Source: an uncultured Erysipelotrichaceae bacterium
GTDB taxonomy: Bacteria > Bacillota_I > Bacilli_A > Erysipelotrichales > Erysipelotrichaceae
Assembly (NCBI GenBank): GCA_902775735.1
Contig: CACYNH010000022.1
Coordinates: forward strand, 1-64,000
DNA: 64,000 nucleotides
Direction: 5' to 3'
Part shown: positions 43,348-45,388 of the stretch, in pieces
Position numbering within the stretch: the first letter of the stretch is position 1
How the letters are laid out: every line of letters starts with the position of its first letter
The notes under the pieces: generated by a model
What the model was told of the DNA's origin: nothing
The model's input: the letters and a program-made list of their open reading frames with translations, nothing else
Database searches by the model: none
Program-made: the position numbers and the translations under genes

Positions 43348-43959
43348 TCAGTGCACACTTTCCGCTATTGCGGCGGCTTCCTCAGGAATGATGCCCTGAC
43401 TCAGGCTGACCGCATAGCTGTATCCGTTTTCCGTCCAGATCAGCAGTCTGCACAGCCCTTCATCGCCTTTGAGTATGACTGTTTTTCCGGCCGCCTGGAT
43501 CTCTGTTTCTGTTTCCCAGGTGTTGTAGTCACCGCTGATATCATCACTGCCTTCTGCCTTGCGGATATGCATTCTCACCTCATCCGACGCATCGCAATAG
43601 GCTGCGTCAATGAGGGAATTATTGTAGACGGCAATTTCCGAAAGCTTCAGGTCTTTATATGTCTCAGGGCACTCCAGCGCGAACCCTGTCAATGCTTCGG
43701 CTTCCTGCATGCTTTCACATACGGTGTACGGTCTTGCGATCGTCACGTCGGGATTACCCGGAGTTCCCTGCTGGGCAGGTCTGAGCACCCGGGGCAGGAT
43801 GAACGCCATCAGCAATACTGCAAACGCTCCTGCCAGCATTCTGGCATTGAACCAGCCGAATGCTTTCTTTTCTTTCGGAAGATATCCCTGGGGAGCGGCT
43901 TCCAGGATGAAATCATCGCTGATATCGGTGAATGCCTTCAGCATTGTTTCCTTCTTCAT
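43348..43959 (-). CDS. Putative membrane anti-sigma factor
   Basis: The 203-residue protein has a cytosolic N-terminus (residues 1-38), one transmembrane helix (MLAGAFAVLLMAFILPRVL) and an extracytoplasmic domain ending in ENGYSYAVSLSQGIIPEEAA, similar to DUF4367-type sensor domains. Its start overlaps the stop of the sigma gene (ATGA), the usual arrangement for a sigma and its membrane partner. The signal sensed is unknown. Confidence 0.75.
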   Translation of the reverse strand: MKKETMLKAFTDISDDFILEAAPQGYLPKEKKAFGWFNARMLAGAFAVLLMAFILPRVLRPAQQGTPGNPDVTIARPYTVCESMQEAEALTGFALECPETYKDLKLSEIAVYNNSLIDAAYCDASDEVRMHIRKAEGSDDISGDYNTWETETEIQAAGKTVILKGDEGLCRLLIWTENGYSYAVSLSQGIIPEEAAAIAESVH

Positions 43960-44426
43960 ATGCTGTATCCCTCCTCTTCAAGGTATAACTTCAGTTTTTC
44001 TCTTGTCCGCGAGAGAGTCATCTTGACATTGCTGTCGGACATGCGGTTCTCCTTTGCGATTTCCTTAACGGACATCATGTACCAGTATCTCTGCACAAAG
44101 ACTGTTCTTATCAGTTCACCCAGTTCATCAAGACATGCGTCCGTTTCGTTTCCGCCGCGTTTTTCCGCAGTGAGTTTTTCATAGAGATTAATGGAGATGT
44201 TGCGGCAGATTTTCCCGAGATATGTGCTCAGCTTTTCGGGCCTCTGCGGAGGCAGTGAGTTCCAGGTCTGCAGGTAAGTGTCATTGACGCATTCTTCCAT
44301 GTCTTCTTTGTTTGTGACAATGCTGAAGGCGATCTTTCTGCAGTATTTCCCGTACTTCCTGTCCGTCTCTGTGATGGCATTTTCATTTCTGTCCCAGTAC
44401 ATTTCAACGATTTCAAAGTCTTCCAT
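43956..44426 (-). CDS. ECF-like sigma factor with an internal deletion
   Basis: Region 2 is normal (residues 1-75: VEMYWDRNENAITETDRKYG, EDMEECVNDTYLQTWNSLPP, YLGKICRNISINLYEKLTAE). Region 4 is recognisable by RTVFVQRYWYMMSVKEIAKE and the helix SDSNVKMTLSRTREKLK. Between them, the sequence joins CLDELGEL directly to IRTVFVQRYW. In relatives about 33 residues (a linker and the first helix of region 4) lie here, giving about 189 residues instead of 156. The frame is intact. Either this lineage has a shortened sigma or the protein is impaired. Confidence 0.8.
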   Translation of the reverse strand: MEDFEIVEMYWDRNENAITETDRKYGKYCRKIAFSIVTNKEDMEECVNDTYLQTWNSLPPQRPEKLSTYLGKICRNISINLYEKLTAEKRGGNETDACLDELGELIRTVFVQRYWYMMSVKEIAKENRMSDSNVKMTLSRTREKLKLYLEEEGYSI

Positions 44427-44501: not shown

Positions 44502-44843
44502 TTATTCCTCGATATCCAGAATAGTCACAGTTCCGTCCAGTGCCTTATGGATGGTGACTGTCACTGTCTTCTTCTCCGCACCCGGACGTACGATTCTGCT
44601 TTCTGCTTTGAACTTATAGTTTGTTCCGTTGACAATCTGTGTTTCAATCAGATCAATTGCCTTATAGTCAACGCCGATCAGTTTTTCTGTCGCTTCATCG
44701 AAGAGCTCCTGTGCTTCCGGTGCGATCTCTGTTTCTTCAACAGCGGTCCATCCGCCAAGGATCTGTGTGTCTGCTGTGTTATTCATAGCTGTTCCTGTCA
44801 ATAATGCGATTACGGCTGCGCCTGCGAACATTGTCTTGAACAT
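44502..44843 (-). CDS. Secreted stefin-like cystatin, copy 1
   Basis: This 113-residue protein has a signal peptide (MFKTMFAGAAVIALLTGTAM) followed by a cystatin/stefin domain. It shows a Gly-Gly near the mature N-terminus (ILGGWT), an alpha helix (APEAQELFDEATEKLIG), the cysteine protease-binding loop QIVNGTNYKFKAES and a last strand, TIHKALDGTVTIL. Stefins insert the QxVxG loop and N-terminal Gly into papain-like proteases. The target could be a host, rival or self protease. A near-identical copy lies upstream with the same leader sequence. Confidence 0.8.
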   Translation of the reverse strand: MFKTMFAGAAVIALLTGTAMNNTADTQILGGWTAVEETEIAPEAQELFDEATEKLIGVDYKAIDLIETQIVNGTNYKFKAESRIVRPGAEKKTVTVTIHKALDGTVTILDIEE

Positions 44844-44895
44844 TTTGTTATCCTCCCGGGCTCTTTCTTTGCCCTTACACCTCTATACACACACC
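44844..44895 (-). repeat. Duplicated leader of the cystatin genes
   Basis: The roughly 50 bases before copy 1 repeat almost exactly before copy 2 (45301-45352): ribosome site GGGAGGATAAC, then GAGCCCGGGAGG and TGTATAGAGGTG. The tandem unit is about 457 bases. A hairpin, GTCACA/TGTGAC, lies between the genes at 44923-44940. Confidence 0.75.
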
Positions 44896-44955
44896 TCTAT
44901 ACACAGTTTTGAGTATTGTCACGTCACAGTTTTTTGTGACTTTTTTTGTTTTTTT

Positions 44956-45300
44956 TTATTCAGCGATATCGAGAATTGTCACAGTTCCGTCCAGTGCCTT
45001 ATGGATGGTGACTGTTACTGTCTTCTTTTCCGCGCCCGGACGTACGACTCTGCTTTCTGCCTTGAACCTGTAGTTTGTTCCGTTGACGATCTGGGTTTCA
45101 ATCAGCTCAACTGCCTCATAGTCAACGCCGATCAGCTTGTCAGTTGCTTCATCAAAGATCTCCTGAACTTCCGGCGCGATCTCTGTTTCTTCTGTGGCTG
45201 TCCATCCGCCAAGGATCTGTGTGTCTGCTGTGTTATTCATAGCTGCTGCTCCTGTCAATAATGCGATTACGGCTGCGCCTGCGAACATTGTCTTGAACAT
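44956..45300 (-). CDS. Secreted stefin-like cystatin, copy 2
   Basis: The 114-residue paralogue of the neighbouring cystatin has the same signal peptide, ILGGWT, QIVNGTNYRFKAES and TIHKALDGTVTIL. Substitutions lie mostly on the helix (PEVQEIFDEATDKLIG) and outside the protease-binding loop. GGGAGGATAACAAA precedes the ATG. Conservation of the inhibitory segments in both copies implies selection for function rather than decay. Confidence 0.8.
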   Translation of the reverse strand: MFKTMFAGAAVIALLTGAAAMNNTADTQILGGWTATEETEIAPEVQEIFDEATDKLIGVDYEAVELIETQIVNGTNYRFKAESRVVRPGAEKKTVTVTIHKALDGTVTILDIAE

Positions 45301-45355
45301 TTTGTTATCCTCCCGGGCTCTTTCTTTGCCCTTACACCTCTATACACATCTGCGC

Positions 45356-45388
45356 AAAATAAAAAGTTATCAGTATACCGCTGATAAC
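45356..45388 (-). terminator. Terminator after the glutaredoxin-like gene
   Basis: GTTATCAG/CTGATAAC perfect stem followed on the minus strand by TTTTTATTTT. Confidence 0.92.

Follow-up and report, generated by a model that had tools for sequence, protein, structure and literature searches.

The stretch analysed here (hereafter the window) comprises 64,000 nucleotides (nt) of contig CACYNH010000022.1 from an uncultured Erysipelotrichaceae bacterium and encodes two tandem cystatin-like proteins next to an operon for a sigma factor of the extracytoplasmic function (ECF) type. It is quite probable that these proteins are inhibitors of papain-type proteases outside the cell and that they belong to a cystatin regulon controlled by the operon-encoded ECF sigma factor. 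The occurrence of stefins in a bacterium is not new; it has been known since 2009 (PMC2784779). New, as far as the open-licence literature shows, is the setting, namely the combination of cystatins with an ECF sigma operon, a shared promoter-like motif and a DUF4367-like fusion. The two genes and their leaders are located as follows:

44502..44843, minus strand: cystatin-like protein copy 1 (P0001, 113 amino acids (aa)), directly 5' of the sigma factor gene
44956..45300, minus strand: cystatin-like protein copy 2 (P0002, 114 aa), the upstream copy
44844..44891, minus strand: duplicated leader of copy 1, with the ribosome-binding site GGGAGGATAACAAAATG
45301..45348, minus strand: duplicated leader of copy 2, same as 44844-44891; a -10-like TGTGTAT at 45342-45348, without a matching -35 element

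An earlier note, based on the letters of this DNA alone, had described a tandem pair of near-identical secreted stefin-like proteins at this place, and the two minus-strand open reading frames found here are indeed 90% identical in both protein and DNA sequence. The Gly-Gly, the inhibitor loop and the VHKxL-like strand named in that note are present in both proteins as LGGW, QIVNGTNY and TIHKALDG, and neither protein contains a cysteine. The proposed signal peptide was recognized by eye as a hydrophobic N-terminal stretch without a lipobox in both copies; the mature N-terminus is probably located near MNNTADTQILGGW. The 48 nt preceding each ATG do not differ between the copies (45301-45348 versus 44844-44891). 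The duplication therefore takes in the leaders and the ribosome-binding region, as had been proposed. The closest relative, in genome G247, is 94% identical to copy 2 and is the single match there, with a sigma gene behind it at the end of the contig; the tandem pair thus seems to have arisen by a local duplication of recent date. Neither full-length protein gave a useful match in Pfam or NCBIfam.

The structure was predicted by means of AlphaFold2 from 24 sequences, 20 of which were viral-contig loci. The model has a predicted local distance difference test (pLDDT) score of about 93-96 for residues 41-114 and displays a complete cystatin fold, in which a helix is wrapped by an antiparallel sheet. 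This is the grip around the helix on which the earlier note had made its reading depend. The order of elements is strand, helix, four strands, and the QIVNG hairpin sits between strands 2 and 3. Most of the top matches of VIA-align are cystatins and stefins of plants, ticks, amoebae and humans; monellin, a known cystatin fold, is also among them. For example, potato multicystatin was matched with a Z of 10.1 (2.2 A, 80 residues), tarocystatin from its papain complex (3ima) with 9.8 (2.0 A over 77), CsStefin-1 with 9.7, and stefin B from its papain complex (1stf) with 9.0 (2.7 A over 78, 26% identity). The first seven Foldseek matches belong to the cystatin superfamily and are headed by sialostatin L2 with a probability of 1.00. 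An earlier AlphaFold2 model from four sequences had the right topology but was weak (pLDDT 61.8), and its matches were superseded by those of the 24-sequence model.

The N-terminal Gly and the QxVxG motif of the cystatin superfamily (MEROPS I25) are present and are kept among the relatives. Across 26 domains from Erysipelotrichaceae, the columns G5, G6, F23, A26, G32, Q44, G48, N50 and Y51 do not vary; most of them belong to the Gly-Gly near the N-terminus or are the Q, G, N and Y residues within QxVxGxNY. Seven of the 12 near-invariant columns fall within the 10 inhibitor-motif columns of 87 (hypergeometric P 1.4e-5), so that the conservation of the motifs pointed out in the earlier note is beyond chance. 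Furthermore, a profile of the 26 relatives compared to the PDB yielded cystatins in all of the top 16 rows; the best match was 6i1m (E 2.1e-5), and stefin A was found with an E of 0.005. The fold alone is no proof of inhibition. Given the predicted fold together with the selectively conserved wedge residues, protease inhibition is the likeliest function.

With respect to class, both proteins share the traits of stefins (type 1 cystatins) in that they lack cysteines and thus disulfides, have no Pro-Trp in the second loop and consist of a single domain of 113 or 114 aa. The stefin label of the earlier note is supported to this extent. The classical type has no signal peptide, whereas both copies carry the hydrophobic leader seen by eye; they are therefore designated stefin-like and not classical stefins. 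The two disulfides and the PW motif of type 2 cystatins are absent. Sequence and model thus suggest small secreted proteins of the cystatin superfamily that are nearest to type 1 in build.

The earlier note was silent on the two genes downstream of the pair and on a promoter-like site between the copies:

43956..44426, minus strand: ECF-type sigma factor, 156 aa, downstream of copy 1; TIGR02937
43348..43959, minus strand: single-pass membrane protein whose outer domain is DUF4367-like; its start and the stop of the sigma gene overlap (ATGA)
44899..44928, minus strand: promoter-like site of the ECF type (TGTGACG-N15-CTGTGTAT), located between the copies and 55 nt upstream of the copy 1 ATG
45366..45388, minus strand: hairpin GTTATCAGCGGTATACTGATAAC followed by a T-rich run, read from the sequence

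The sigma protein reached 62.2 bits on TIGR02937 (cut-off 42.9), and its Pfam regions 2 and 4 are above the cut-off; it thus has the build of an ECF factor, i.e. regions 2 and 4 without region 3. The adjoining membrane protein, with its overlapping start and one hydrophobic span, is a probable anti-sigma factor or sensor. Its outer part is 32-34% identical to a domain that is fused behind cystatins in other genomes (L011, L013, L018, L022, L023, L029). On PF14285 (DUF4367), the homologous cystatin fusions scored 15.2-16.8 bits and did not reach the cut-off of 22.1, which is why the label "DUF4367-like" is used. The order cystatin(s), sigma factor, DUF4367-like protein was found in eight genomes (G000, G203, G256, G156, G200, G188, G202, G221); in G188, G202 and G221 the fused domain is on the cystatin itself. 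G247 is a ninth genome, in which cystatin and sigma gene are followed by the contig end. The nine genomes with the cystatin-sigma order span three genera.

A motif TGTGACC-N15-CTGTGTAT is common to the upstream regions of many cystatin genes, where it typically lies some 40-50 nt upstream of the start codon. In 60 congeneric genomes it was counted 31 times, compared to 2 for the reversed control, and with few exceptions the gene that follows encodes a cystatin, a sigma factor or a DUF4367-like protein. The site at 44899-44928 is the only match with fewer than two mismatches in the genome under study. Among the stretches fetched, the motif also precedes cystatin genes that have no sigma gene nearby, three in a 17-kb contig of G150 and one in G200. 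A TGTAACC variant occurs in a second genus, ahead of the series DUF4367-like, sigma, DUF4367-like (L121, L122). A different, longer pattern gave only 3 sites in 196 genomes of the family, two of them at sigma operons. In the form given above, the motif thus belongs chiefly to this genus. Taken as it stands, it would define an ECF regulon that comprises the cystatins, the DUF4367-like proteins and the sigma operon itself.

Several observations weigh against the proposed regulon and against inhibitor function. Cystatin upstream regions were the first source of the motif, which makes those sites circular. As part of the sites served to derive it, the remaining ones are the fair test, in which the following sites speak for the regulon. 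Four of these lie before sigma genes (L087, L095, L108, L109), four before further cystatin or fusion genes (L092, L093, L103, L104), and L115 before the gene of a DUF4367-like lipoprotein that is followed by sigma. Four genus-wide matches have no fitting downstream gene: L088 and L089 are intragenic, and L100 and L106 have a longer spacer and lie inside a repeated gene. Other genus-wide matches sit at contig ends. Among the two-domain lipoprotein relatives, several (L059, L060) have neither the promoter motif nor a neighbouring sigma gene. In the window, copy 2 keeps a -10-like element and lacks a good -35 element; the hairpin GTTATCAGCGGTATACTGATAAC is likely the terminator of the upstream gene and would occupy the -35 region of copy 2. 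The sigma factor is about 30 residues short between regions 2 and 4, where LDELGELI runs into RTVFVQRYW; six homologues have these residues. The gap may be a real deletion that possibly impairs the sigma factor, or an assembly error. Judged from the short sigma factor and the -35 gap, regulation may be broken in this genome. Moreover, the DUF4367-like protein of the window matches no Pfam model, and the trimmed cystatin domain reached only 13.0 bits on the Pfam cystatin model PF00031, whose cut-off of 22.2 is a detection threshold and not a biochemical feature. Across 21 related genomes nothing exceeded the PF00031 cut-off either, the best relative having an E of 8.4e-4.

Apart from these points, a short tandem repeat at 44880-44905 (TGTGTATAGAGG twice) doubles the -10-like element before copy 1.

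The DUF4367-like domain gives rise to an explanation in which the cystatin fold does not inhibit: the proteins could be ligands or decoys for the DUF4367-like sensor domain and thereby set sigma activity. It would account for the fact that this domain is found in the membrane protein and also in fusions with cystatins, and that cystatins and DUF4367-like proteins are both candidate members of the regulon; other cystatin folds such as monellin have lost inhibition. Yet the strictly conserved columns mainly represent the inhibitory wedge, which a ligand role does not need, and fusion and co-regulation do not demonstrate binding. We regard this explanation as decidedly unlikely.

Relatives of the two proteins are encoded in 67 of 295 genomes of the order, every one of which belongs to the family of the bacterium under study. 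Often there are several per genome, and often two tandem domains are contained in an apparent lipoprotein. When 392 genomes of the phylum were searched with a profile (E 1e-4), only members of the same family were found; therefore no wider spread in the phylum is claimed. Viral contigs contributed 18 distant relatives. IMG/VR contigs (L079, L072, L085, L082/L083), one of them 275 kb long, encode stefin-like proteins that have two tandem domains and no obvious leader; single-domain 'LVGGWTPYHKLTP' stefins occur on several other IMG/VR contigs. In a further viral contig, a 1750-aa frame carries a cystatin-like domain at its C-terminus (L080:3-5252). At L015:1357-3189, such a domain is located on a large protein with List_Bact repeat and Hint domains. 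L025:932-2053 and L026:1150-2196 combine cystatin, lipocalin-like and DUF4430-like domains in one protein, just below the cut-off.

Which proteases would be inhibited? A PF00112 search of the own genome yielded only a PF03051 peptidase (PepC-like, C1-like family) that shows no evident signal peptide. With the genome 86% complete, the lack of other papain-type enzymes is not firm. Because the sole papain-type enzyme found is a leaderless PepC-like peptidase, exogenous cysteine proteases are the likelier target; such enzymes, met in the gut or rumen, would be the likeliest targets. Alternatively, the cystatins might control bacterial cysteine proteases and shield the cells from papain-family enzymes that the bacteria themselves or their neighbours secrete. 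Leader-bearing papain-family proteins do occur in two congeners, G150 (L065:907-2343, minus strand, 478 aa) and G272 (L064:1-2409, minus strand), where they are possible targets of the cystatins, and G150 has at least three cystatin genes. This alternative is nevertheless unlikely, given the leaderless enzyme of the own genome and the fact that, by inspection without statistics, papain-family matches and cystatins do not obviously co-vary across the genus.

An intact cystatin fold with its motifs would equally suit effectors that are secreted against lysosomal or extracellular cathepsins of an animal host, which the earlier note had considered, and host-directed emergency inhibitors were proposed in print in 2009 (PMC2784779). 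Nothing specific for host contact was seen, however, and many relatives (e.g. L012, L013, L019) look like lipoproteins with a lipobox Cys. As these would be kept on the cell, self-protection fits better, and we consider host-directed effectors unlikely. A close relative moreover stems from an assembly of the RUG series, which we take to denote rumen.

For the preferred reading, inhibition outside the cell under sigma control, the fold is provided by the model, and motif conservation, gene order, domain fusion and the shared promoter motif by the sequences. From these we infer the inhibition, the relation of sigma and anti-sigma factor, and an outside threat (proteolysis or envelope damage) as the signal. 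Outside the cell, the cystatins would block papain-type cysteine proteases with the wedge typical of cystatins: the Gly-Gly trunk at the N-terminus, the QIVNG hairpin and a second one (KALDG) would plug the active-site cleft. From TGTGACC-N15-CTGTGTAT promoters, the operon-encoded ECF sigma factor would direct transcription of the cystatin genes as well as of the operon it belongs to, and the DUF4367-like membrane protein would be its anti-sigma factor. The setting suggests an inducible shield, i.e. a secreted anti-protease response. A more specific version can be offered only tentatively and is not the most probable outcome: the DUF4367-like protein might sense an attack by being cut or protease-bound and free the sigma factor, whereupon cystatins cover the surface and the surroundings. 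By analogy, such an immunity circuit would be a protease counterpart of SigV-RsiV, possibly directed against digestive proteases of protozoan grazers, which is an equally tentative idea.

In the open-licence literature, no link of cystatins to ECF sigma factors, no mention of DUF4367 and no account of the regulation of bacterial stefins were found. An egg-white paper that names both an ECF sigma factor and cystatin does so once each and incidentally, and was discarded. With a sigma factor of its own, a promoter in common and a fusion to a sensor domain, the family makes the emergency-inhibitor guess of 2009 a testable circuit that has defined products and a defined inducer screen. The circuit also matters for ruminal protein turnover and for grazing by protozoa; cysteine peptidases are of importance in the protozoa and bacteria of the rumen (PMC6908469). 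It also follows that Pfam-based annotation misses this cystatin family.

Compared to stefins such as human stefin A and B and CsStefin-1 (MEROPS I25), the window proteins agree in the single domain of about 85 residues, the cystatin topology, the N-terminal Gly and QxVxG, and likewise in the lack of cysteines and of PW in the second loop. Unlike classical stefins, they are bacterial, bear a leader and are below the Pfam cystatin cut-off. The secreted type 1 cystatin of Fasciola hepatica (6i1m, the best PDB sequence match) contains VGG and QVVAGTNYKF and is secreted as well; it is a protein of an animal parasite, and organism and regulation differ. The bacterial stefins reported by Kordis and Turk in 2009 share QxVxG, a patchy distribution and a proposed role as emergency inhibitors. 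In the accessible text of that account, Firmicutes cases are confined to Clostridia, some stefins of unicellular eukaryotes have gained a leader too, and neither an ECF sigma operon nor a shared promoter nor a DUF4367-like fusion appears (PMC2784779). In SigV-RsiV, the membrane partner is a receptor of lysozyme (PMC4183432, PMC5014341). Both systems combine an ECF sigma factor with a membrane partner, and both would mount a protective response to a foreign hydrolase; in contrast to SigV-RsiV, the putative sensor domain of the present system is DUF4367-like, and its products are predicted protease inhibitors.
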